Shown here one piece after another: positions 4,967 through 33,487 of a stretch of 52,100 bases of DNA; the first letter of the stretch is position 1, and the number at the start of each line of letters is the position of its first letter. The notes under the pieces were generated by a model that saw only the letters and a program-made list of their open reading frames with translations, had not been told where the DNA came from and did not search any database. The translations under genes were made by a program, and so were the position numbers. The stretch comes from Spirochaetota bacterium (GTDB lineage: Bacteria; Spirochaetota; UBA4802; UB4802), in NCBI GenBank assembly GCA_040756435.1, contig JBFLZD010000026.1, positions 1 through 52,100 of the forward strand. Reading direction: 5' to 3'.

Positions 4967-5875
4967 TTAATGTACTATAATGGTATTAATATTTTTCTTA
5001 ACCAGTTCAATATCCTTTTCATATTTTAAGATAAAATTTAATGTGTCAATTGCAATATCACGGTTCAATACTTCACAACCAAGTAAAGCTAATGCTTTTG
5101 CCCAGTCTAATGTTTCGCTTATGCTTGGATCTTTCTTTAACGGGAGTTTTCGTATTTCATGAATTGTATTAATAATTTCTTTTATGAGATAATTGCCACA
5201 TTCTGGTACTTTTAATTTTACTATCTGTTCTTCAAGTTCCTTTGTTGGATAGTCAATGTAAAGATGAAGACACCGCCGTTTAAGCGCATCAGACATTTCG
5301 CGGGCATTATTTGAGGTAAGAAGTACAAATGGCTTTTTATTAGCAGTAATGGTACCAATTTCAGGTATTGTAACCTGAAAATCGGAAAGCACCTCAAGTA
5401 AAAATGCTTCAAACTCTGAATCTGATTTATCAATTTCATCAATAAGCAATACCGAAGGTGTTTCATTAGTAATAGCTTTTAAGATGGGGCGTGCAACCAG
5501 AAATTTTTCAGAAAAGAATACGTCTTCTTCGGTTGACAATTTGTTCACAGCATCTTTTAATGTAGCCTGATCTTCTAGAATTTTTGATAATTTATCCTTG
5601 AGTATCTGGGTATACAAAAGCTGTTTTGCATATTCCCACTCATAGAGCGCTTTTGCCTCATCAAGGCCTTCATAGCATTGAAGGCGTATAAGCTCATATC
5701 CTAACGCCTGAGCAATACATTTTCCTAAATCAGTTTTGCCTACACCTGCAGGCCCTTCAACCAGAACTGGTTTTTCCATTTTTAACGCTAAATATATCGT
5801 AGTTGCTATTTCTTTAGAACAGATATACTTTTGCTTTTCTAACTCTTGAATTGTATCTTTTATTGAACCAAACAT
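4967..5875 (-). CDS. MoxR-family AAA+ ATPase
   Basis: 302 residues, the normal size for a MoxR ATPase. Walker A GPAGVGKT lies at 41-48 and Walker B VLLIDEIDKSD near 143-153. A sensor-like TSNNAREMSDALKRR carries the arginine-finger region. AAGAAGG stands a few bases before the ATG and fixes the start. MoxR proteins act with a VWA partner, here the adjacent downstream gene, in assembling or activating client complexes. The gene is transcribed away from the argG block, across a 184-base spacer (5876-6059) with nothing recognisable except a 12-base direct repeat (TAATATGAGTAT) and a GTGTACACC segment at 5993. Confidence 0.92.
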   Translation of the reverse strand: MFGSIKDTIQELEKQKYICSKEIATTIYLALKMEKPVLVEGPAGVGKTDLGKCIAQALGYELIRLQCYEGLDEAKALYEWEYAKQLLYTQILKDKLSKILEDQATLKDAVNKLSTEEDVFFSEKFLVARPILKAITNETPSVLLIDEIDKSDSEFEAFLLEVLSDFQVTIPEIGTITANKKPFVLLTSNNAREMSDALKRRCLHLYIDYPTKELEEQIVKLKVPECGNYLIKEIINTIHEIRKLPLKKDPSISETLDWAKALALLGCEVLNRDIAIDTLNFILKYEKDIELVKKNINTIIVH

Positions 5876-6059
5876 TATAAAGCCTTCTTTACACTGTTTT
5901 ATGCCATTAATATGAGTATAGCGTAATTATCAAGAAAATTATATAAAAAATGGTAATATGAGTATGCACCACTATTTATATCTCAAAGAAAAGTGTACAC
6001 CACGCCACAATAGGCATCGTGTTGCCAATATTTTTTATACTGAATTTAAAAGTATATGT

Positions 6060-6992
6060 TTACAATCGTATTTTGTTAAAAAGATTAAGATCGTTTATAC
6101 GTAATTGGATGGGTTTGTTTAAGGAATCGGGATGTTCCATACAATAATTTGCAATCTTCTGTGTAATATTGAGAACACGTGCCACATCTCCTAATGTGTC
6201 AACATACTTATCAGAGAATGCATTTTCCAATTGTTCCCGAGAAAAATTCATTTGTAACGACAGCAATTCTTCTGCTTCGCGAAGAGTATGATCCTGATTT
6301 GGTAAGGGGATATTTTTGGAAAGATAGCACAAAAATGCAATATATGCTTCACCAATGAGTGAACGTTCAATTAGGCTCCACTTCTTTAATATTTTTCGTA
6401 GTTCTTTGTCCTTTACAGGTGAGATTTGTGAAGCATCGCAGGTAAAATCTGTAAGTGTTAAAGACGAATGTCTGATAGTTGGCAATATTGAAAGATTGAT
6501 ATCTTGCAATGCATTTTCAGGGAGGCTTTTAACCGGTATATACATCATCTTAGTAAATTTATCTTCGCCCGGCCTTCTGGCAGTAATTAATAGCATATCT
6601 GCATCTGAACCACCAGAGATATAGTTCTTTTTACCAGAAAGCACAAGTGTATTTGTATCCATATATCGGGCAATCATACGGTTACTATCTGGTTCGGTAT
6701 GAGCCATAGCACCTATTGTAGCATTATCAATCTGAATTGTCCATGGCTGTAGCTGATTGATGTTGTAGATGATACATCGTATAAGCACAGATTGGACAAT
6801 CCAGAGCAATGCAAATCCTAAATCTCCTGAATGTAGTGCAACGTTTGTTGAAGGCAATTCTTTGAAATCAAGAAGACAGTGTGTGGGTGGATAGTCACCA
6901 ACAAATAAATTCCATGCATCGTTAAACAATGCATGGTTCTGTATACGGTTGGGATAGCTCTGTTCCAGTTTTTGTAGGGTACTATCGCTCAT
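6060..6992 (-). CDS. Divergent, shortened acyl-CoA dehydrogenase-like protein
   Basis: 310 residues, against about 380 for typical acyl-CoA dehydrogenases. The middle beta-domain is recognisable: GAMAHTEPDSNRM matches the usual TEP...GS flavin/substrate segment, and LSGKKNYISGGSDADMLLI matches the LNGxKxWITNG...AD segment. The N-terminal helical domain is short. I cannot find the C-terminal Gly-rich segment that carries the catalytic glutamate and part of the FAD site in classical members. It may be a non-catalytic or altered flavoprotein (inference). The start codon lies one base after the argG stop, so it is translated with argG, although no link between the two functions is known to me. 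The first codons contain a GCGATAGT word. Confidence 0.7.
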   Translation of the reverse strand: MSDSTLQKLEQSYPNRIQNHALFNDAWNLFVGDYPPTHCLLDFKELPSTNVALHSGDLGFALLWIVQSVLIRCIIYNINQLQPWTIQIDNATIGAMAHTEPDSNRMIARYMDTNTLVLSGKKNYISGGSDADMLLITARRPGEDKFTKMMYIPVKSLPENALQDINLSILPTIRHSSLTLTDFTCDASQISPVKDKELRKILKKWSLIERSLIGEAYIAFLCYLSKNIPLPNQDHTLREAEELLSLQMNFSREQLENAFSDKYVDTLGDVARVLNITQKIANYCMEHPDSLNKPIQLRINDLNLFNKIRL

Positions 6993-6993
6993 A

Positions 6994-8199
6994 TTATTTT
7001 CTTTTTTGCTTTAATAATGCTTCAATCTTTGTTTGTAAACCAAACAGGTTAATAAATCCGGTTGCATCACGGTGATCGTACAATGCACTTTCATCAAATG
7101 TTGCAATATCCGGCTCATACAAGGTAACAGGGGATTTGCGCCCTACCGCCATGCAGGTACCTTTAAACAACTTTACACGGACAGTACCGGTTACATTTTT
7201 TTGCGTTTCATTAATAAATGCATCTAAAGCTTCACGACGTTTGGTAAACCACTGACCATAATAAACCAGTTCGGCATATTCTATTGCCAGCCTGTCTTTT
7301 AAATGCTGGGTATCCCTGTCCAGTGTTATAGCTTCAAGATCGCGATGCGCTACATGTAACACTGTACCTGCGGGAGTTTCATATACACCGCGTGATTTAA
7401 TGCCAACAAGCCTGTTTTCTACTATATCAATCCTGCCAACACCATTTTCGCCGGCAATTTTATTGAGCGTTTTCATTAAAACTACAGGATTCATGCGTTT
7501 GCCATCTATTGCAACTGGTATTCCCTGTTCAAATTCTATTTCAACATAGGTAGGTGTATCAGGTGCTTTTTCAGGTGATTTTGTTAATATGAACATACTT
7601 TCATCTGGTTCACGCCACGGATCTTCCAGTATCCCACCTTCATACGATATGTGAAGTATATTGCGGTCCATACTATATGGCTTATCTTTTGTTACAGGAA
7701 CTGGTATATTATGTTTTTCGGCATAGTCAAAAAGGGATGAACGTGAAGTCAAATTCCATTCTCGCCATGGTGCAATGATCTTCAATTGTGGAGCCAGAGC
7801 CTTAAATGTCATTTCAAAGCGTACCTGATCATTGCCTTTCCCCGTTGCACCGTGACACACAGCATCAGCACCTTCTTTTAAGGCTATCTCTACCTGACGT
7901 TTAGCAATAACCGGGCGAGCAATAGATGTTCCAAGTAAGTATCTATTTTCATAAATGGCATTTGCCTTAATACATGGGAAGATAAAATCGCGCACAAATT
8001 CTTCTTTGAGGTCTTCAATATAACATTTTGAAGCACCGGTATTGATTGCCTTTTGTTCAAGTCCATCAAGTTCTTCTTCCTGGCCAACATCAGCAGCATA
8101 ACAAATTACTTCACATTTATAGGTTTCAAGCAACCATTTTACAATGACGGAAGTATCAAGGCCACCTGAATATGCAAGTACAACTTTTTTAATACTCAT
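6994..8199 (-). CDS. argG: Argininosuccinate synthase
   Basis: 401 residues, full length. It catalyses ATP-dependent condensation of citrulline and aspartate, the penultimate step of arginine synthesis, in the cytoplasm. The N-terminal ATP pyrophosphatase motif [13 protein letters not shown], the family segment [14 protein letters not shown] and the conserved YSMDRNILH stretch are all present. GAGGG lies at normal distance before the ATG and supports the start. The other arginine genes in the window (argD, argF) are about 6 kb away, so the pathway is split. argH is not in the window. The next gene downstream is coupled by a one-base gap. Confidence 0.98.
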
Positions 8200-8364
8200 A
8201 GCATATCCCTCAAATATAATTTATAATTAACTAATTTTGCAATTTGCAGTATTCTGATTTATAGTCAAGCGATTAATCTAATTTAATCTTATAGTATTTA
8301 TTGTGTAAATTGATAGTATTGTTCCGCTTCAATGAAAACGGGAAAAAATAGGGTAAAAACTTGT

Positions 8365-9903
8365 TTAATCACTAACAACAACTTTATTGCGACCCTGGCT
8401 TTTTGCTTCATATAGCGCTTTGTCAGCATCACGTATGATATCTTCAATTGTTTGAGAATATTCTTTAATTTGTGAAACTCCCAAACTTAATGAAATTTTG
8501 AATTGATTGTTTTGTTTATCATGAAATGTAAGATCATTGATACATGACCTTATGCGTTCTGCTACATTTTGCGCAGCAATAATACTGGTTTCAGGAAGAC
8601 ATATAATAAATTCTTCTCCACCATACCGTGCAAATATATCTAAAGAACGTAATGATTCTGCAATGCTTTTTGCAATAGTTTTTAAAACATCATCTCCAAT
8701 TGCATGGCCGTATGTATCATTAACTATTTTAAAATAGTCTATATCCATAATAATGATAGAAAGTGGGTTTTTATTTCTTTTTGCTCTATTAAATTCCCTC
8801 AAAGCTACTTCATTAAATTTTCTTCGGTTATAAATACCTGTTAATTCATCAGTTATTGCTAATTTTTGTAATTTCTCAGCCATCATTCTGTATTCAGTGA
8901 TATCACGCAGTAAGAAAATATATCCCATGGATTTATTTTTTATTGATGTAAGCGGTATATTCTGTATATTATAAATTCTTTCATTAATTGTTGTTTCAGT
9001 AACTATCTGTAAATCCTGGTTATCATTTATTGATGAAGATAATTCATTCAATACATCTTTAATATTTTTACCAATAATAGATTCTTGGTTAGATAAGATA
9101 TTTTCTGCACTGCGATTGTAATCAATAATTAATCCATTGTTATCAAGAACAAAAGCAGCATCATATATATTTTCAAATACTAAATCTCTTGCAATGGGTA
9201 GAATATCTATAAGATATTGCTTTTTTACACCAATATATAAAATAATTGCCATGATTGTAAATGAAAACGGATTTATATCTAAAGGCCAGGTAATTATTCC
9301 AGAAAGATATATAAACATAGTAATCCACGGAATTAAAGTACTAAGAAAGATTATGACAGTTTGTTTTTTAAAACGCGAATGGCTTTTTATAAAAATTCTT
9401 AGAAAAATTATATTAGAAATTAACAAAGCAACATTATAATACACTATATGAACCCAGTACCAAATCCCCTTTTCAAAAGAAACTACTGGAAAAGGACCTG
9501 AGTAATCTATAAATGGATTTTTATGCAGTAAATTGTGATAGGGATCAGTTAGTACTACTATAAAAGTAATTATTGGAATCACGTAAATGAAAAATTTTAA
9601 ATATAAAGGGATTCTATCAATATCAGTTAAATACGATAAAGCTAATAAGATTAAAAATGCAGGTAAAAATGAAATACCAATATATTCAAAGATCAGTGAT
9701 ATATGCACCCATTGTAAGGTTTGTCCCTGGATTTCTATAGTATAACCAATAGTATATATTGCAAATGCTAATAAAAGTAACAATAAATATTTTCTTTCTT
9801 TAACTTTCTTACGGATGATAATTATCATACACAGCGATAGTAATATTGCTGATGATAAAAATAACAAAGATGAAACTAATATTTTTGCCGTCATAAAATT
9901 CAT
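8365..9903 (-). CDS. Membrane diguanylate cyclase (7TM sensor-PAS-GGDEF)
   Basis: 512 residues. The first 225 or so contain about seven hydrophobic helices, like the 7TM sensor regions found on histidine kinases and cyclases. A PAS domain follows (about 240-340; DAAFVLDNNGLIIDYNRSAE), then a GGDEF domain (about 345-510). The active-site signature is GGEEF near residue 425, and an RSLD motif sits five residues before it. This is the position of the inhibitory c-di-GMP site, so an active, feedback-controlled cyclase making c-di-GMP from two GTP is expected. No ribosome site is obvious, and ATG at 9894 is an alternative start. A GCGATAGT word lies at 9834. Confidence 0.9.
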   Translation of the reverse strand: MNFMTAKILVSSLLFLSSAILLSLCMIIIIRKKVKERKYLLLLLLAFAIYTIGYTIEIQGQTLQWVHISLIFEYIGISFLPAFLILLALSYLTDIDRIPLYLKFFIYVIPIITFIVVLTDPYHNLLHKNPFIDYSGPFPVVSFEKGIWYWVHIVYYNVALLISNIIFLRIFIKSHSRFKKQTVIIFLSTLIPWITMFIYLSGIITWPLDINPFSFTIMAIILYIGVKKQYLIDILPIARDLVFENIYDAAFVLDNNGLIIDYNRSAENILSNQESIIGKNIKDVLNELSSSINDNQDLQIVTETTINERIYNIQNIPLTSIKNKSMGYIFLLRDITEYRMMAEKLQKLAITDELTGIYNRRKFNEVALREFNRAKRNKNPLSIIIMDIDYFKIVNDTYGHAIGDDVLKTIAKSIAESLRSLDIFARYGGEEFIICLPETSIIAAQNVAERIRSCINDLTFHDKQNNQFKISLSLGVSQIKEYSQTIEDIIRDADKALYEAKSQGRNKVVVSD

Positions 9904-10134
9904 TATTACATTTATTTTAATAATTAGAAAATGTGTACATATTTATTTGTCAAATAATAATTTGTCATGTGTATCGGTGTATTTGTAAATATTACAATAA
10001 ATTTTGAAAATTAGTCTATTAAAAAAATTGTATATTAAAACCCTAAACTCAATTGACAATACATTCATTATCAATATTCTTGACAGTAATACTACTGATA
10101 TTTGGTGTAATGGAGAAAAACAACCAAGTTAGTA

Positions 10135-10162
10135 AATCCTCCAAAAAACATACTGGAGGATT
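10135..10162 (+). repeat. Inverted repeat that can sequester the transposase ribosome site
   Basis: AATCCTCCA and TGGAGGATT form a perfect nine-base stem around a ten-base loop. The right arm contains the GGAGGA ribosome site of the orfA remnant, whose ATG begins at 10165. Insertion sequences are known to use such hairpins to block transposase translation from read-through transcripts; that role here is inferred. Confidence 0.6.
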
Positions 10163-10164
10163 AA

Positions 10165-10341
10165 ATGAGCAAGAAGAAGAGAAGGCTCTTTAGCACTGAG
10201 GAAAATTTTAATACCGTCAAGCAGGTACTTGGCAAAGCAAAGACAGTTACATAGATAAGTGAAGAATATGGCATTCATCCAAATTTGTACTATCGCTGGC
10301 AGGGTGAATTTTTTGAAGCAGCCCTTAATGGTTTTAAATGA
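10165..10341 (+). pseudogene. IS3-family transposase OrfA remnant, interrupted and truncated
   Basis: The reading frame starts at the ATG after GGAGGA with MSKKKRRLFSTEENF. It hits an in-frame TAG at 10252-10254 and continues with ISEEYGIHPNLYYRWQGEF before TGA at 10339. This is the N-terminal helix-turn-helix of IS3/IS911-type OrfA (K-R-R-x-F-[ST]-x-E ... EYGIHPNLxYRW). A full OrfA is about 90-100 residues and is followed by an OrfB with a DDE core; neither the C-terminal leucine zipper nor OrfB is present. The element is therefore dead. No terminal inverted repeats or target duplication could be identified in the surrounding AT-rich spacer (9904-10587), which holds no other gene. Confidence 0.85.
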
Positions 10342-10445
10342 TTGAAGCAAGACAGTAATTATTTTTGTAATACAATGAGCAATTTTAGTGCACGTTAAAC
10401 TTATGGACTATTTTTTATTGACACAAAAAATTTTTTATATCATTA

Positions 10446-10454
10446 TGGTATAAT
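10446..10454 (+). promoter_or_regulatory. Extended -10 promoter candidate for the CsgG-like operon
   Basis: TGGTATAAT matches the extended -10 consensus (TGn then TATAAT) exactly. It lies about 135 bases before the first gene of the 10588-14227 operon. A TTGACA at 10418-10423 is spaced better for a weaker CATTAT at 10441. The match is to consensus only, in very AT-rich DNA. Confidence 0.4.
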
Positions 10455-10587
10455 AATTTTATTTACAATTCATCATTTTAACACTATAGAGCTTGTCTTA
10501 GAGTATTTTATATAGATTTCTGCACCTCATACACATTACTCACCTCTATAATGATAATTATGATGATTTACAAATAGTAAATATTGT

Positions 10588-11487
10588 ATGAATTACAAAT
10601 TCAAAATTTTAATTAATACTTTAATGTTTGTACTCATTATCGAAGTATTCTCCTCCTCATATGAATTATTAACCATATCATTTTATATGCCAGTATCAAC
10701 TAATAATGATGGTTTGGTATCAGAAAATATACATATATTTAATCAATTATTAACCAATTTAAAAAATAAACATAAAATAAATGTTAATGATCGAAAAGAA
10801 TTATCTAATATTTTAAATGATTTAGAAAAAGACATGGCCATCTACGATATGACCGTTATAAAGGATGCAAAGAAAATTGCCTCAGATTTTTTTATTACTG
10901 GTATTATCTATCATGAAAGTCATGTTAAAGTCCTCTTGCGAATTATCGAGGTAAAAACAGCAAAACTTATTGGAATAATAAATAAACAAATAATTGAGAT
11001 TCCAAAAAGCGATTATGAAATTATTTCTGTTATTAATGAATACTCTAAAGTTAAACAATCAATCCATTCAATTATTTTTGCTCCATTTAAAGATAATAGT
11101 TACAAACGTGAATATAAAGGAAAAGAATTTATCTTTTATGATTTAATTGCTGATTCGCTAATTAAAAATAGCTCATTTGCAATTTCAGTTGTTGATAGAA
11201 GTGAGATATCACGAATATTATCTGAACAAAGCTTAAATCTTTCAGGTATTGATAGTTCTGATGATTATATTAAATCCCTCAGATTAACAGGGGCTGATTT
11301 AATAATATTTTGCTCTATTCAAAAGTCAGGAAATAAAATCAGAATTTCATCCAGGGCTATAAATCCTACAGATGGGTCTATAGCTTTTTCCATATTCAAT
11401 GATTCATCTGTAGGAAATGAGGAAAAGTTATGTGTTGAAGTTGGAAAACAAATTTGTAATAAAATATATGAGGAAATACAACGATGA
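10588..11487 (+). CDS. Exported protein with two CsgG/LpoB-like domains
   Basis: 299 residues with an N-terminal hydrophobic segment (about 6-26) that looks like a signal peptide or anchor; no lipobox cysteine is visible. Two related halves follow. The second (about 165-290) shows the CsgG/FlgO/LpoB pattern: VVDRSEISRILSEQSL, then LTGADLIIFCSIQ, then IRISSRAINPTDGSIAF. The first (about 30-145) is a more worn copy (VNDRKELSNILNDLE ... ASDFFITGIIY ... LLRIIEVKTAKLIG). Family members sit in the periplasm or outer membrane as secretion pores or activators of envelope enzymes. The specific function is unknown. It has no clear ribosome site and overlaps the next gene by ATGA. Base composition is visibly more AT-rich than the arg or clp genes. 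Confidence 0.65.
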   Translation: MNYKFKILINTLMFVLIIEVFSSSYELLTISFYMPVSTNNDGLVSENIHIFNQLLTNLKNKHKINVNDRKELSNILNDLEKDMAIYDMTVIKDAKKIASDFFITGIIYHESHVKVLLRIIEVKTAKLIGIINKQIIEIPKSDYEIISVINEYSKVKQSIHSIIFAPFKDNSYKREYKGKEFIFYDLIADSLIKNSSFAISVVDRSEISRILSEQSLNLSGIDSSDDYIKSLRLTGADLIIFCSIQKSGNKIRISSRAINPTDGSIAFSIFNDSSVGNEEKLCVEVGKQICNKIYEEIQR

Positions 11488-12566
11488 GAAAAATAATTAT
11501 AATTTTTTTATCTATATTTTTAACACTCATATCGATAACACTTTTTGCGAATAAAAAAGATTCAATTATATTTCTTTCATATTATGTAAACTATAAAACA
11601 GGATATGTAATCGACTTTGAACCATGGTTTTATGCATATAATGCAAAATATAATCAATCAGATACTTCAAATGATTTTGTCATAGAAGCACAAAATGGCG
11701 AAGCATGGAGTTTTAGTAAAAGTTTCCTAACTAATGAAAGTTATGCAGTCAATGATATTCGCTTTATAATAGATGGGCTATGTAAAATGTTTCCTACAAT
11801 GACTCAGGAACAGATTAAGCCTGTAGCTCAGACTTTTATAGATTATGGTCGAATACCTGAGAAAACAGAACCAGATATGCCTGATATGCTTGCATATCTG
11901 CAACCTCACCCACAGAATAAAAATTTTTTACAGGCTTTTACTTTTTTTAAGTCAGGAAACAAAGGGGTAATCATACAATCTATGGTGCTCGCTACCAAGG
12001 AGGCTTCAGATCAGCTGGCATCGATTATGTATAAATTTAGATTTCTTTCTACAAAGGAATATTCTATTAATGAAAATTCCTATAAACATAATTACTTTAA
12101 ATTTCAATTCACTACTTCTAATGATTATGTTATAATCCCACAAAGTAGAGGTTTTGACAGGTTTTTTATGTTAAGTTCAATATATTCACCTCTGGATAGT
12201 GTAAAACCATTATTTGCTACTATCTACAAAGTGCAGGTTGATGAAACTCTTCCGGCTGAAGAACAGATTCAAGATATAGCTGAAGCTCATATAAGCAATA
12301 CTCAAAAAGGACAAATTCAGAATTATTTTAATATGCTTTTGAGTATTATAAAAAAGCCTCAGATAATAAAAACAAATTATGGTAAGTCAAACGGTCTCAG
12401 GGCAATATATGCAGTTTCTGGGTTCAATCAGTTAGGTATAGTTTATGATTTAATAAAAGTTGGAAATAATTATATTCTTATAGTTGTCCAAATAAAAAAT
12501 ATAGATTCCAAAGAGATTAATAATTATGTTAATGAATTTACGAAAGGGTTAAAAGTTGAAATATGA
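11484..12566 (+). CDS. Exported protein of unknown function, middle gene of CsgG-like operon
   Basis: 360 residues. An N-terminal hydrophobic run (about 3-22) ending in LFANKK looks like a signal peptide, so the protein should be exported. I recognise no domain in the remainder. It contains aromatic-rich segments (FLSYYVNYKTGYVIDFEPWFYAY) and a C-terminal part alternating predicted beta strands (GLRAIYAVSGFNQLGIVYDL; NYILIVVQIK). Start and stop both overlap the neighbouring genes by four bases (ATGA), so the three proteins are almost certainly made together and probably act in one envelope complex (inference). Confidence 0.6.
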   Translation: MRKIIIIFLSIFLTLISITLFANKKDSIIFLSYYVNYKTGYVIDFEPWFYAYNAKYNQSDTSNDFVIEAQNGEAWSFSKSFLTNESYAVNDIRFIIDGLCKMFPTMTQEQIKPVAQTFIDYGRIPEKTEPDMPDMLAYLQPHPQNKNFLQAFTFFKSGNKGVIIQSMVLATKEASDQLASIMYKFRFLSTKEYSINENSYKHNYFKFQFTTSNDYVIIPQSRGFDRFFMLSSIYSPLDSVKPLFATIYKVQVDETLPAEEQIQDIAEAHISNTQKGQIQNYFNMLLSIIKKPQIIKTNYGKSNGLRAIYAVSGFNQLGIVYDLIKVGNNYILIVVQIKNIDSKEINNYVNEFTKGLKVEI

Positions 12567-14227
12567 AGTATTTGCGTATAATATCAATATTTTTTTCTAT
12601 TTTATTTTATTGTATTACTGCTCAAGCACAGGTAATACGAGTGGCTGTTATTGGTTTTGAAAAATATGGTGGGATATCGCTTGATTTTGAATTGGGGTTA
12701 GCTCTTCAGCAGGGAATTATTGATTCTTTAGCTCCATATCAAAAATATGGAATTACAGTTATAGATAGAGGTAATTTGGAGCATATTATACAAGAAAATA
12801 ATTTACAAAAAGCAGGATTGATAACTGAAAGAGATAGCAATCAATACAAGGGGCTTGCACATTGTGATATTATTATCGGTGGAAACTATCAGGTAACAGA
12901 AGAAAACATAAAAGTGTTAATAAGGGTAGAAAATATTAAGAATGAAAATATAGTTATTTCTGAAATTATCAAAACATGTACTGAAAATACATTGTTTGAT
13001 ATTTTTGAACCAGCTACAAATGAAATAATAAAATTAATAGGGCTCTCTCAAAAAAAAGAAAAACCAATTATTGACAACACTATGAATGCAAAATCTTTTA
13101 TGCTATATTTAAAAGGAAAAGAATCACTTCTTTGTGGACCAAATTATGAGTCAAGAATGACTAAAACATTACAATATTATAAGCAGGCTCTGGAATTATC
13201 GCCTGATGAACCCCTATACAAAGCATCATATGTGGAAGTAAATTGCTTGCTATCTGAATATAAGAGAATTATTGGGAAAAATAAGGAAGCATTCCAACAC
13301 CTTGTTGAAGCTATAAAAAATGCAAAGGATTTATTTTACAGATACCCTTGGATTCCTCAATGTACATCTGCATGGGCAATGAGCCTTGATTCATTGACTC
13401 CTTATTACTTTTCTGTTTTAGAATATTCAAAAAAATACAATATTAATTGGATAAAACAATACCAATCAGTGTATGAATTCAGGAAAAATGAAATAATTCC
13501 ATTATTTGAAGATGCCCTGAAAAATAATCCATATTCATATTCATTATTGATAATGATGTCCAAAGCGTTAATGGAAAATCAAAAATACATTGATGCTGAA
13601 GAACTTTTAAAACGTGCTATTGATATTGAACCGTTATCATTTTACTCAAGAACAATGCTTGCCCGCTGTTATATAATGCAAAACCGTAACCGAATGGCCA
13701 TCCATGTTATAAAAAATTCGGAAGAATATATTGGTTCTGATATTTTATCATTATGGTATATCACCAATGCCTATATAAATATTGATGAATATGAAAAATC
13801 AATTGGTTATGCTAACAAAATGATGAATCTTGAACCATTTAATCATCTTGGATATTATACTAAAGGATTAGTATGTTTAAAATTGGGAAAAAGTGATGAA
13901 GCAGCACAATATTTTAAGCAAGCATTAGTATATTACCAATTACATGGCCCTAGCTTGCTACAGATGGGGAAATATTATTATAACCAATCTAATAAAAAGG
14001 AGTCCTTAAAATATTACAATACCATAATAAATCAATTAGACTCTGATAAGGAATTTTATGAAGATGAAATTCTGGCGATAGCGTTTGATGCAATAATAAA
14101 CTCAGGTGATGTAACATCAATAAAAACCTTAAAGGATAAGCTGAATTTTCTTATAAAAACAGGTAATAATGAATTTTATGTTTATTATAAAAATCTAGCT
14201 GAAAAAAAACTAGAAGAATTAAAATAA
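12563..14227 (+). CDS. Exported CsgG-like / TPR protein
   Basis: 554 residues. A signal peptide (about 1-22, ending AQAQ) is followed by a CsgG/TolB-N-like domain (about 23-155). Its landmarks are IRVAVIGFEKYG, TVIDRGNLEHIIQENNL, CDIIIGGNYQ and VLIRVEN. The rest (about 170-554) is TPR-like helical repeats, for example MLYLKGKESLL, YYKQALELSPDEPLYK, AEELLKRAIDIEPLSFYS and AAQYFKQALVYYQLHG. The CsgG-like domain is related to both halves of the first gene of the operon. The combination suggests a periplasmic sensor or assembly factor with a protein-binding TPR tail. No enzyme motif is seen. The gene is convergent with argF; the 44-base gap holds no terminator I can recognise. Confidence 0.7.
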   Translation: MKYLRIISIFFSILFYCITAQAQVIRVAVIGFEKYGGISLDFELGLALQQGIIDSLAPYQKYGITVIDRGNLEHIIQENNLQKAGLITERDSNQYKGLAHCDIIIGGNYQVTEENIKVLIRVENIKNENIVISEIIKTCTENTLFDIFEPATNEIIKLIGLSQKKEKPIIDNTMNAKSFMLYLKGKESLLCGPNYESRMTKTLQYYKQALELSPDEPLYKASYVEVNCLLSEYKRIIGKNKEAFQHLVEAIKNAKDLFYRYPWIPQCTSAWAMSLDSLTPYYFSVLEYSKKYNINWIKQYQSVYEFRKNEIIPLFEDALKNNPYSYSLLIMMSKALMENQKYIDAEELLKRAIDIEPLSFYSRTMLARCYIMQNRNRMAIHVIKNSEEYIGSDILSLWYITNAYINIDEYEKSIGYANKMMNLEPFNHLGYYTKGLVCLKLGKSDEAAQYFKQALVYYQLHGPSLLQMGKYYYNQSNKKESLKYYNTIINQLDSDKEFYEDEILAIAFDAIINSGDVTSIKTLKDKLNFLIKTGNNEFYVYYKNLAEKKLEELK

Positions 14228-14271
14228 AATGAGTTTTATATAACTTTTCAATAATCTAATATTATCTAATT

Positions 14272-15213
14272 TTACTTCATCAATGTGCAAAGAATAGCTT
14301 TCTGTACATGCATTCTGTTCTCAGCCTGGTCCAGCACAATGGATTGTGGCGAATCAATAACATCATCGGTTATTTCCTCACCCCTGTGAGCTGGCAGACA
14401 ATGCATCACTTTGCATTCGGGGGAACATTTATCCAGTATCTTTCGTGTTATTTTATATTTAGCAAAATCCTTTTTTCTTCGTGAAGCTTCTTTTTCCTGG
14501 CCCATGCTAACCCAGACATCGGTGTAAAGATGTGTAGCATTTTCAACAGCCAATGCTATATCACTGGTAAGCGTTATAACACTTCCTGATTTTGAAGCAA
14601 TAGAAAATGCCAGTTCTACCACCTCTTTTTTTGGATAATAGCCTTTAGGGCAGGCCAATGCAAAATCAACACCTAACATTGCAGCAGTTAACATTAATGA
14701 TTGTGCTACATTATTGCCATCTCCTACAAAAGCTAACTTAACATTTTTAAAATTTCTATTAGATTCATATATAGTGAAAAAGTCAGCTAATGCCTGGCAT
14801 GGATGAAACATGTCGGTAAGGCCGTTGATTACAGGAATTGTAGAATTTTGAGCTAACTCTATAGCAGTTGCATGTGCATAACACCGTATCATAATACCAT
14901 CTAAATATCGTGATAATACTTTTGCAGTATCCGCAACGGTTTCCCCGCGTCCTAATTGTATATCATCCCTGCTTAAGAAAAGAGCATAACCACCTAATTG
15001 AAACATAGCCACTTCAAATGATACCCGTGTACGGGTGGATGTTTTTTCAAATATCATGCCCAGGGTTTTCCCTTTAAGATATGAATTGATTTTTCCCTGT
15101 TTCAGTTCATCTTTAAGCTTTTTTGACAGTTCAAATATTGAAATAATTTCTTCTTTTGAAAAATCAGTTACGGATAATAAATCTTTTGATTTTACCCTGG
15201 GTATCTTTATCAT
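14272..15213 (-). CDS. argF: Ornithine carbamoyltransferase
   Basis: 313 residues, full length. It makes citrulline from ornithine and carbamoyl phosphate. The carbamoyl-phosphate motif STRTRVSFE, the HPCQALAD motif and the ornithine-site HCLPAHRGEE are all intact. An aspartate carbamoyltransferase is excluded by the HCLP motif. The ATG overlaps the argD stop as ATGA, so argD-argF is one operon. Confidence 0.97.
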   Translation of the reverse strand: MIKIPRVKSKDLLSVTDFSKEEIISIFELSKKLKDELKQGKINSYLKGKTLGMIFEKTSTRTRVSFEVAMFQLGGYALFLSRDDIQLGRGETVADTAKVLSRYLDGIMIRCYAHATAIELAQNSTIPVINGLTDMFHPCQALADFFTIYESNRNFKNVKLAFVGDGNNVAQSLMLTAAMLGVDFALACPKGYYPKKEVVELAFSIASKSGSVITLTSDIALAVENATHLYTDVWVSMGQEKEASRRKKDFAKYKITRKILDKCSPECKVMHCLPAHRGEEITDDVIDSPQSIVLDQAENRMHVQKAILCTLMK

Positions 15214-29534: not shown

Positions 29535-31532
29535 GTGTGTACCAGTACATCATCCTATGTAAAAGATTTATTATTATCTCATTTTAAAATCTCTCATCTT
29601 GTTGCTGATTTACTATTACTTAGGGGTATGAATAGCCCTTATAGTGCATACACATTCCTCAATCCTGACCTTACATTATGTTACAGCCCATTTCTTATAA
29701 ACGAGATGGATGAAGCAGTAAGGATCATTAAAAATGCTGTAACCCATAAGAAAAAAATAGGTATTTTTGCGGATTCAGATATTGACGGTCTTACTTCTTT
29801 AACATTATTAACTCATTTGCTTGATCTTTTGAAAGCAAAGTACTATTACCGTTATCCTGTTGCCGATGAATTATATGGACTAACAATACCTATTATTGAT
29901 GAGTTTAAAAAAAATAATATAGATTGTATTATAACATTGGATAGTGGTACTCGTGATGTTAATGAAATTGCGTATGCCAGAACTTTGGGTATGGATGTTA
30001 TTGTTTGTGACCACCATGAACCATCTGAAACACTACCAGATGCAGTCATCATTAACCCAAAATTAATCAGTTCTCAATATCCCTTCAAGGAACTGGCTGG
30101 TGTTGGTGTTACTTATAAATTTTGTCTGGCAGTATTGCTAAGCTATACAAAGTATCATGACAAGCATATTATAGTTGTAGCGTTATCACATGATTCTGTT
30201 TTATATAAAGTAATTCATAGAGGCAGGGCGATAGCTCATGGTTCAGTCAACAGCATACAGGAAATAAAACACCTTTTAAAACAATATACTGGTGCAATTC
30301 TTTTTAATTACGATGTACCTGATATAGCATCTTTAAAACATGGAATGTATTATGATATCAGAGACTTTGTAGATGAACTATCGCCAATTAATGAAATAAT
30401 AAAAGGTGATGTTAAGGATTTATTCCCAACCCCGGTGGATTATGCTACCATGCTACTTTTCAAGATACAATACCAGCAATCAAAAAAAATATCACAATTT
30501 ATACAGGATATGCTCCCCCTGGTGGCACTGGGTACCATTGCTGATATGATGCCACTGATAGATGAAAACAGAATTATTGTAAGTAACGGAATATCATACT
30601 TTGATAAAACTAATCATTGCGGATTAAAGGTAATAAGAGAGCATGTTGCAAAAACAATAAATTCGGATACTATTGGCTGGGATATATCACCACTTCTAAA
30701 TTCACCGGGTAGATTTGGCAAAACAAAGTTAGCTGCCGATTTTCTTCTTGAGAAAAAGCAATCAAAAGTAAAAGAACTATTGCAGGAGATTGTTCAACTT
30801 AACAGGGAACGTAAAAATATAATTCAAGCGTTAGTATCAAAATTTTCTAATAATGAATCCATTGAAAATAATGCATTACGGGTGATATGTTCTAATGAAA
30901 TACCTGACGGATTAACCGGAATTATTGCAAACAGGCTTGCTGATCAGTTGTTACAACCTGTGCTTGTAATTTCAGATAAGCCTGAGGCAAAGATAATTAA
31001 AGGTTCAGGGAGGTCACGGAATAATTTTGACTTTTTTACTACCGTATCAAAACATGAACATCTTTTCGAAAAATTAGGTGGGCATAACCATGCCTTTGGT
31101 TTTTCAATAAAAAAAGAGAATATTCCTATACTTTTAAAAGAATTGAATAGTACATTGAGCTGTACAACTATAGAAAATGATATTTCAGAATATGATTATG
31201 AATTGCCAATAGAATACATAACCTTTGAATTACTTGAAGCACTGAAATTATTTGAACCTTATGGAATAGGGCATAAGCCTTTTATTTTTTTATCAAAACA
31301 TTGCACCATCAGCCAATATTTTATCATTAATGGCAAACATTGTAAAATTATTTTTAATGGTTCTATAAAATTAGAAGCTATGGCGTGGAATTCAGCTGAT
31401 AAATATAAAGATATTTTAATACAAAAAATTCCTGTTGATATACTTTTTACAGTAAAAGCTAATGAGTATAATGGTCTTATATCGCCGCTGCTAATTATAG
31501 AAAATCTTTATCCCTCTCAGGATTTAAAATAA
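29535..31532 (+). CDS. recJ: RecJ-like single-strand DNA exonuclease with an insertion
   Basis: 665 residues from the GTG at 29535, which has AAAGGTGG five bases upstream; another GTG at 29526 lies inside that site. The DHH domain has FADSDIDG (D80, D82, D84), a further aspartate in ITLDSGT, and CDHHEP at about 158-163. VALGTIADMMPL supplies the last metal ligand. The DHHA1 domain shows GSGRSRNNFDF and LGGHNHAFGFSI. RecJ degrades single-stranded DNA 5' to 3' in repair and recombination. Between VTYKFCLAVL and LVALGTIAD there are about 110 extra residues (about 208-318) compared with standard RecJ. The stop overlaps the convergent propeller-OmpA gene by 16 bases. Confidence 0.9.
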   Translation: MCTSTSSYVKDLLLSHFKISHLVADLLLLRGMNSPYSAYTFLNPDLTLCYSPFLINEMDEAVRIIKNAVTHKKKIGIFADSDIDGLTSLTLLTHLLDLLKAKYYYRYPVADELYGLTIPIIDEFKKNNIDCIITLDSGTRDVNEIAYARTLGMDVIVCDHHEPSETLPDAVIINPKLISSQYPFKELAGVGVTYKFCLAVLLSYTKYHDKHIIVVALSHDSVLYKVIHRGRAIAHGSVNSIQEIKHLLKQYTGAILFNYDVPDIASLKHGMYYDIRDFVDELSPINEIIKGDVKDLFPTPVDYATMLLFKIQYQQSKKISQFIQDMLPLVALGTIADMMPLIDENRIIVSNGISYFDKTNHCGLKVIREHVAKTINSDTIGWDISPLLNSPGRFGKTKLAADFLLEKKQSKVKELLQEIVQLNRERKNIIQALVSKFSNNESIENNALRVICSNEIPDGLTGIIANRLADQLLQPVLVISDKPEAKIIKGSGRSRNNFDFFTTVSKHEHLFEKLGGHNHAFGFSIKKENIPILLKELNSTLSCTTIENDISEYDYELPIEYITFELLEALKLFEPYGIGHKPFIFLSKHCTISQYFIINGKHCKIIFNGSIKLEAMAWNSADKYKDILIQKIPVDILFTVKANEYNGLISPLLIIENLYPSQDLK

Positions 31533-33487
31533 AATTCTGTTCTCCTGTTCTTCTGTCTCCCTTCTTTAGTATCATTTGGTGCAATTGGCTTTGATTCACC
31601 AAATCCTTTTGCGCTAATCCTTTCAGGGCTTATTCCATGCTTAATAATATAATCGCATACCGCATCAGCACGTTTTTCAGATAATTTTTGATTATAGGTA
31701 TCATCGCCAATTGAGTCAGTATGGCCCCACACCTCAACTTTTAAGTGAGGATTTGCTTTCATCATGTCTACCAGTTTATCAAGAATATTAATCGAGTCTT
31801 TTCTGATATACCATTTATCAAAATCAAAGTGAATGTTATCCACCACTACAGCTTTGCCAGGTTGTATTTCATCAAGGACTACTTTCAATTGACTGTCGCT
31901 TTTATTGACAATTACCTTTTTGGGAACATGACCATCTGATTCAAAAATAACTTCAACATTGTCTTTGTCGGGGATAGTTATATCACCTTTTCCATTAATG
32001 GCAGTTGACTGGTTATACTCCCCATTTTCATCTTTGTATTGAATAGTTATACGTGATTTCAGTGGTGATTTATTATTATCCGTAATCTCAACGGGCAACT
32101 GACGTGTTGGCATTTGTTGTTTTGTAGGTTGTGTTGTTGGCTTTGATTCGGGTGTTTTCGTTTTATCGGCTAATTCTTTTTCAGATAGCTCTTGATCAGG
32201 TAATTTTGATGGTTCTTTTGGTTCACTCTTTTGGGTTTCTTCTGGTTTTGAAGTTTCGTAATGTTTGCTTCCCATATACCCTGCACCAATTGCATACAAA
32301 TAGTTTCCTGCAGGTAAAAATAAAATACCATCAGCAGCTACTGGTTGAGATACGCCTCCAGGGAAGGGGGCAGTGAATTCCCACCATGTATTGCCAGAAT
32401 TGATATACATTGCTTTCACTTTTGCAACTGGTTGATTTTTATCATTTTGCTGATTATACGCAATATATATAACATCACGAATGGTAACAAAGTACGGAGA
32501 GGATTGTTGTCCAACAAATATGCTGGCAATGGTATTACCACTTTCTGGACTTATGCCAACAATTGATGCATTATTCAGCGAAAACAGTATTGACCTGTCG
32601 GTAAAACTTAACGGTGATGTAATGGTGCCATTATATGACTTCTGCCATAATGTTTCACCGTTTTTTATATCCAAACAATATACGGTATTATTTATGGGTA
32701 CATATACATGTTTATTGACTACTGGTGGCAGTATTGCAACTGGTTGATTAAAATTTTTTTGCCATACTACTTTTCCAGTTCTTTGTTCCAAGCAAAAAAC
32801 GGTAAAAGTTTTTGTTTCATAATTCATTGATTGCGTTATGATATACTGATCATAGTAAACAGGAAAACCGCTGTATGTGGCAATATCCTTGTTTTCCCAA
32901 ACTATATGCCCGTTTTTTATATCCCGTGAAGCAAATATTTTTCGAGTACCATAATAAATAGTATCCTGATCAATAATGGGATCCGCATATATCCCATCTA
33001 TGGAAATTTGTGTTGTAATGCCGGTTAACCCTTGAGGTTTTGTTTCGTCAACACGCAATCCGGTACGTGCCCATATAACGTTGCCAGTTCGTTTATCAAA
33101 AGCATAAATAGCAATGGGATCGCTGACAATAACAGTATTTCCATACACAAGAGGATATTTAATTTTCCCAGCTGATTTTGAATATGCTTTAAACTGTGAT
33201 GATATGGATCGTATATCATTAAGCCAGATAATATTTCCAGAATCTTCATCAATGCAATATAGAAATGCATTTTTATCAACAAAATATAGTCTTCCATCAC
33301 TTACAACTGGATTGAATACTCTGTCTTTAGCTAAGAATAGCCATTTTAATTGATTATTTGAAACGATAATTTCATCATTATTGCCTGTAAAAAAAAGATT
33401 TCCTTTATATATTGGCCAGTTACCCGCTAATGCAAAGGTAGCGAAAGTTACTAATAAAAGTGAAATGGTTATTATGATGTTTTTCAT
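31517..33487 (-). CDS. PQQ-like beta-propeller protein with OmpA peptidoglycan-binding domain
   Basis: 656 residues. A signal peptide (1-21, ending ALAG) is followed by PQQ-type propeller repeats (about 22-410), each with an aromatic-Gly-x-V/I-x-W core such as DEDSGNIIWLNDI, DKRTGNVIWARTG, EQRTGKVVWQKNF and DIKNGETLWQKSY. A Pro/Glu/Lys-rich linker (about 415-470) and a small beta domain lead to an OmpA-C domain (about 545-656; HFDFDKWYIRKDS, VWGHTDSIGDD, GFGESKPIAPND, NRRTEF). The linker suits a periplasmic span, with the propeller held at the cell wall or outer membrane. GGAGG before the ATG supports the start. The binding partner of the propeller is unknown. Confidence 0.9.
   Translation of the reverse strand: MKNIIITISLLLVTFATFALAGNWPIYKGNLFFTGNNDEIIVSNNQLKWLFLAKDRVFNPVVSDGRLYFVDKNAFLYCIDEDSGNIIWLNDIRSISSQFKAYSKSAGKIKYPLVYGNTVIVSDPIAIYAFDKRTGNVIWARTGLRVDETKPQGLTGITTQISIDGIYADPIIDQDTIYYGTRKIFASRDIKNGHIVWENKDIATYSGFPVYYDQYIITQSMNYETKTFTVFCLEQRTGKVVWQKNFNQPVAILPPVVNKHVYVPINNTVYCLDIKNGETLWQKSYNGTITSPLSFTDRSILFSLNNASIVGISPESGNTIASIFVGQQSSPYFVTIRDVIYIAYNQQNDKNQPVAKVKAMYINSGNTWWEFTAPFPGGVSQPVAADGILFLPAGNYLYAIGAGYMGSKHYETSKPEETQKSEPKEPSKLPDQELSEKELADKTKTPESKPTTQPTKQQMPTRQLPVEITDNNKSPLKSRITIQYKDENGEYNQSTAINGKGDITIPDKDNVEVIFESDGHVPKKVIVNKSDSQLKVVLDEIQPGKAVVVDNIHFDFDKWYIRKDSINILDKLVDMMKANPHLKVEVWGHTDSIGDDTYNQKLSEKRADAVCDYIIKHGISPERISAKGFGESKPIAPNDTKEGRQKNRRTEFYFKS

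Follow-up and report, generated by a model that had tools for sequence, protein, structure and literature searches.

A 52,100-nucleotide stretch of the genome of an uncultured member of the Spirochaetota (the window) contains three overlapping genes, here called A, B, and C, that may well constitute a species-specific accessory operon whose soluble periplasmic products form a scaffold from CsgG-fold domains and TPRs. The CsgG-fold domain is a common building block of envelope rings and is found in curli, Pel, flagellar H-ring, Tol, and PBP activation systems. Spirochaetota have many copies of it, often fused to TPRs. What is new in this operon is a fresh arrangement of known domains, in which a tandem-domain subunit is encoded together with an orphan partner. 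Its main value is as a pointer to the CsgG-TPR proteins, a family with strong conservation throughout the order.

Layout and coding status of the operon

The operon lies between an IS3 remnant and the ornithine carbamoyltransferase gene (otc), within a variable spacer that is bordered on its other side by argG. The features of this region are as follows.

6994-8199: argG, left border of the variable spacer
8365-9903, minus strand: 7TM-PAS-GGDEF gene within the otc-argG spacer, in the opposite orientation to its congener orthologues
10165-10338, plus strand: IS3-type orfA remnant with a transposase helix-turn-helix (HTH_Tnp_1, 2e-7 on a read-through fragment) and an internal stop
10418-10446, plus strand: promoter-like site (TTGACA, 17 nt, CATTAT) about 140 nt 5' of gene A, a consensus match only
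10588-11487, plus strand: gene A, 299 aa; predicted signal peptide, then a tandem pair of CsgG/FlgO/LpoB-like domains (about residues 26-143 and 159-292)
11484-12566, plus strand: gene B, 360 aa; predicted signal peptide; an orphan in which the two halves (about residues 40-192 and 193-360) are weakly suggested to be repeats
12563-14227, plus strand: gene C, 554 aa; predicted signal peptide (AQA/Q), CsgG/FlgO-like domain (residues 29-147), and TPR array (about residues 200-500)
14272-15213, minus strand: otc, right border of the variable spacer

A, B, and C are three coding ORFs that make up one overlapping unit. The original prediction described ATGA overlaps, N-terminal export signals on all three proteins, and a dead IS3 gene beside the operon, and each of these is borne out. 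An ORF check finds exactly ATGA at the A/B and B/C junctions, which suggests that translation of the three genes is coupled. A hydrophobic start can be seen by eye in each protein, and from these putative signal peptides we infer export to the periplasm. The per-codon in-frame coding signals of A (0.41), B (0.38), and C (0.34) compare with 0.27-0.55 for known genes in the window, and the other reading frames of the three genes score clearly below the in-frame ones.

The block had also been described as more AT-rich than its neighbors. Its GC content (26-29%) is lower than that of the window (about 34%), but the adjacent GGDEF gene is equally AT-rich (27.5% GC). Likewise, A, B, and C have GC3 values (0.18-0.21) close to that of the GGDEF gene (0.18) and not far under those of argG and otc (0.28). 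Because this neighbor has the same AT-richness and GC3, composition does not mark a foreign block, and we rejected it as a sign of foreign origin.

CsgG-like domains and resemblance to known systems

Pfam matches in protein A to both CsgG (1.3e-6) and LpoB (3.9e-5) are over the curated cut-offs. Protein C has strong TPR matches (TPR_2, 1e-13), and its CsgG and FlgO matches are just under cut-off (17.9 bits versus 22.6 for FlgO). As a noncircular test, we used a family profile built from 37 spirochaete relatives with the operon proteins left out. It scores 21.5 bits for the first copy in A, about 61 bits for the second, and 61 bits for C, in agreement with the predicted architecture of two CsgG/FlgO-like domains in A and a single one followed by a TPR tail in C. 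By sequence, the same profile also matches chains of CsgG (2.6e-5) and FlgO (3.6e-4).

An AlphaFold model of A computed with 42 relatives has a pLDDT of about 90 over the second copy (residues 159-299). Foldseek matches this copy to PDB structures of GNA1162, LpoB, the TolB N-domain, PelC, FlgT, and CsgG with E values from 4e-7 to about 1e-4. The CsgG/LpoB fold that had been proposed is thereby recovered by structure prediction for the second copy, and on the strength of this model its predicted fold class is secure. For the first copy there was no alignment to draw on, and its model has low confidence. Judged by sequence, a CsgG-like fold is well supported for C and moderately supported for the first copy of A. 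A segment said to be shared by all three copies is present as [VI]xDRxx[LI]xxI[LI], followed by 'D-hydrophobic' and '[IV][KR]xxxR' strands; the inner Leu position is Ile in the second copy of A. This motif is a signature of the whole family and is nothing peculiar to the operon.

Several systems use related domains. FlgO and FlgT belong to the H-ring of the Vibrio flagellar motor, and they have a CsgG-like domain in common with A and C, as seen in the fold match of the second A copy to FlgT and the profile match to FlgO chains. However, C is under the FlgO cut-off, and around the operon no flagellar genes of the window were recognized by eye. PelC-PelB exopolysaccharide export combines a CsgG-fold domain with TPRs, as the operon does, but no beta-barrel or Pel genes were recognized here, neither A nor C is a lipoprotein, and the domains are fused in a different way.

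The middle protein and the distribution of the operon

B had been described as matching nothing known, and searches of Pfam, NCBIfam, PHROGs, and the PDB were indeed all negative. No relatives were found in a pattern scan of GTDB genomes, and no homologues in 46 genomes of the order or 393 genomes of the phylum. Phages, plasmids, and IMG/VR contain no match to B either, and a phage or plasmid origin was rejected on this basis. Weak 'homologues' in five Spirochaetota genomes were also discarded, as every one of them is interrupted by stop codons and the single hit inspected runs antisense to a gene. B is not a third CsgG-like protein, for its family-profile score is below zero. A single-sequence AlphaFold prediction (pLDDT 39) gave an unusable model. 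The two halves of B align to each other better than shuffles do (z = 3.6-4.5), and an in-register alignment links the second of them to PsbP/DcrB-like proteins from the same phylum. With hhalign, this half scores 22.8 against PsbP/DcrB proteins of the genus versus a shuffle maximum of 17.6 (n = 60), but a few of 100 real decoys equal or exceed this score, which thus does not stand out clearly from them. We would guess from these alignments that B might consist of two PsbP/DcrB-like lobes. A PsbP_2/DcrB-like lipoprotein (L119; G000:C11:29721-30158) is present in all five genus members examined.

The original prediction implied a conserved three-gene system. This did not hold up, as a co-occurrence check finds A, B, and C together nowhere else in the genomes searched, and there is no full-length homologue of A among 393 Spirochaetota genomes. 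As far as sampled, A-B-C appears to be an accessory restricted to one species and not a known conserved machine. No paper on the operon or on spirochaetal CsgG-TPR proteins was found in the literature.

C, in contrast to the operon as a whole, has recognizable kin. Its CsgG-like domain, its TPR_2 match, and a signal peptide identified by eye make it a diverged member of a spirochaetal kind of protein. The domain order of this kind (signal peptide, CsgG-like, TPR) is phylum-wide, and CsgG-like proteins with TPRs recur across the order. Examples such as G000:C5:47372 and G032:C4:233870 are like C in size and in the order of their domains, and the profile matches them along the full length of the CsgG-like domain, but they are only about 25% identical to C and are solitary, with neither A nor B alongside. 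All relatives of C in the order are at the paralogue level (roughly 20-31% identity). At least three of these paralogues are encoded in this genome (contigs 5, 12, and 50), which has further CsgG-like proteins on contig 35 (VWA-CsgG) and contigs 6 and 81 (small proteins). The contig 35 protein (L088:1991-3922) consists of a VWA domain and a C-terminal CsgG-like domain and has matches of similar length in other genomes of the order.

Among the members of the order that were compared, the CsgG-TPR protein on contig 5 has 54-97% identity. It therefore looks core, whereas C is an accessory cousin. Its gene (L072:7379-9031) and orthologues are located near dut, RNase J-like, uppP-like, and ftsK-like genes (named by eye) in two congener contexts. 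The protein itself seems to belong to the core envelope set and would make a better target than A-B-C.

Adjacent CsgG-domain genes also exist in a distant spirochaete family. In one case, a 177-aa CsgG-like protein is encoded 8 nt from a 610-aa CsgG protein. In another (G112:C40), a double-CsgG protein is encoded beside a 550-aa CsgG protein, and B is absent. The latter pair (L162:3382-4833 and 5151-6803) comprises a double-CsgG/FlgO-like gene with a possible C-terminal beta-barrel and a CsgG-domain gene on the same strand. It resembles A and C in placing tandem CsgG-like domains next to a second CsgG-domain gene, but it differs in its C-terminal OMP-like domain (0.001, under the cut-off), its lack of a B homologue, and a 317-nt gap where the operon has overlaps. 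These pairs are loose architectural analogues of A and C without B.

The otc-argG spacer (window positions 8200-14272; L047, L048, L049, L050, and L051) is a hot spot among relatives. In congener G015 and family member G013, otc and argG are directly adjacent. The spacer contains a GGDEF gene and an adenylate cyclase in congener G017, a GGDEF gene in G014, and only a GGDEF fragment in G016, the closest of these relatives, which has a 98% identical OTC. The GGDEF gene in the window is inverted relative to those of G017 and G016. A-B-C is absent from this site in all five relatives compared, and a look for direct and inverted repeats flanking the spacer gave nothing convincing. Both flanks lie on one contig and match the relatives closely and in the same order, which makes an assembly chimera unlikely.

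These observations bear on the strongest rival to a scaffold, which is that the operon is a relic or drifting accessory gained at a variable spacer. A, B, and C would then have been copied from chromosomal CsgG-like genes and be diverging from them, perhaps dispensably, and they would form no dedicated complex. The insertions, inversion, and deletion at this site in congeners, the IS3 debris and inverted GGDEF gene, the failure to find the operon anywhere else searched, and the low identity of C to its paralogues relative to that of the order's main CsgG-TPR protein are all consistent with this explanation. On the other hand, A, B, and C are intact with good coding scores while the neighboring IS3 gene has decayed, and we regard a relic as rather unlikely.

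Proposed function and remaining alternatives

In the scaffold that we favor, the building block would be the CsgG/LpoB/TolB-N-fold domain, which is present in many copies in Spirochaetota. The tandem domains of A and the single domain of C would pack together or on a chromosomal CsgG-fold partner. The TPR array of C might then hold a client protein or polymer, and B, as an exported two-lobed protein, could be a co-folded partner or client. An envelope complex of A, B, and C is plausible, and we infer their physical association, the scaffold role, and the fold of B. Oligomerization of the CsgG-fold domains in A and C is not predictable from sequence. Every relative examined lacks the operon, so co-conservation gives no backing to a functional link between the genes. 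A scaffold is nevertheless the likeliest role, because it has precedents. CsgG-fold domains assemble into rings in CsgG, PelC, and the flagellar H-ring (PMC12141448; PMC7990780). FlgO and FlgT build periplasmic rings (PMC7990780), and the TPRs of PelB are docked and held by a ring of PelC (PMC12141448). The envelope proteins whose structures match the predicted fold of the second A copy are likewise ring or scaffold formers.

A sensor, which was one of the functions originally suggested, is improbable. The operon would act in this case as a periplasmic module that works with the neighboring GGDEF gene or other signaling genes, with a ligand bound by B or by the TPRs and the resulting state passed on. 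Signaling genes do occupy the spacer, with 7TM-PAS-GGDEF here and GGDEF plus adenylate cyclase in G017, and another CsgG-TPR protein of this genome is encoded downstream of a 7TMR-DISM hybrid kinase. However, congeners have the GGDEF gene without the operon, and in the window this gene points away from the operon with IS debris in between. The neighborhood therefore looks incidental. The hybrid kinase locus (L086:3651-9066; G000:C12) encodes a 7TMR-DISM/HisKA/REC/SpoIIE protein followed by a CsgG-like protein with TPRs and ankyrin repeats, and these two proteins are possibly a sensor pair.

The other suggested functions, an outer-membrane pore or an activator of wall synthesis, would require that A and C act in the strict sense of CsgG or LpoB. 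CsgG (PF03783) is the curli secretion channel, and LpoB (PF13036) is an activator of PBP1B, whose UB2H domain is the LpoB receptor. Resemblance to both is real at the level of the domain, since A is over the Pfam cut-off for each and has the core fold in common with CsgG and a fold match to LpoB. Nevertheless, inspection of the sequences finds no lipobox in A, B, or C. A has no cysteine within its first 241 residues, and C17 of protein C sits inside the hydrophobic stretch ahead of the AQA cleavage motif, so that neither has the N-terminal lipidated cysteine of CsgG and no cysteine in the three proteins is placed for lipidation. The match to the CsgG model covers just the periplasmic core (positions 42-105 of 210), with no room for the CsgG transmembrane hairpins, and the NCBIfam LpoB equivalog scores 12.7 bits where 110 are required. 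In addition, neither CsgE, the partner of CsgG, nor UB2H (PF14814) has a match in this genome. The missing partners make the curli and LpoB mechanisms unlikely, and both functions were rejected. A pore is disfavored by the absent lipobox cysteine and hairpins, as is an LpoB-like activator by the absent lipid anchor and UB2H domain, and we consider either one very unlikely. There is an equally slim prospect that the operon encodes a new type of self-contained periplasmic machine, which a single spirochaete species evolved or acquired. Its heteromeric ring would combine tandem and single CsgG-fold subunits and have a TPR arm, and B, as a new protein family, would supply the moving or client part.

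Elsewhere in the window, positions 31517-33487 encode a protein that by eye appears to combine a PQQ-like beta-propeller with an OmpA-type C-terminal domain.
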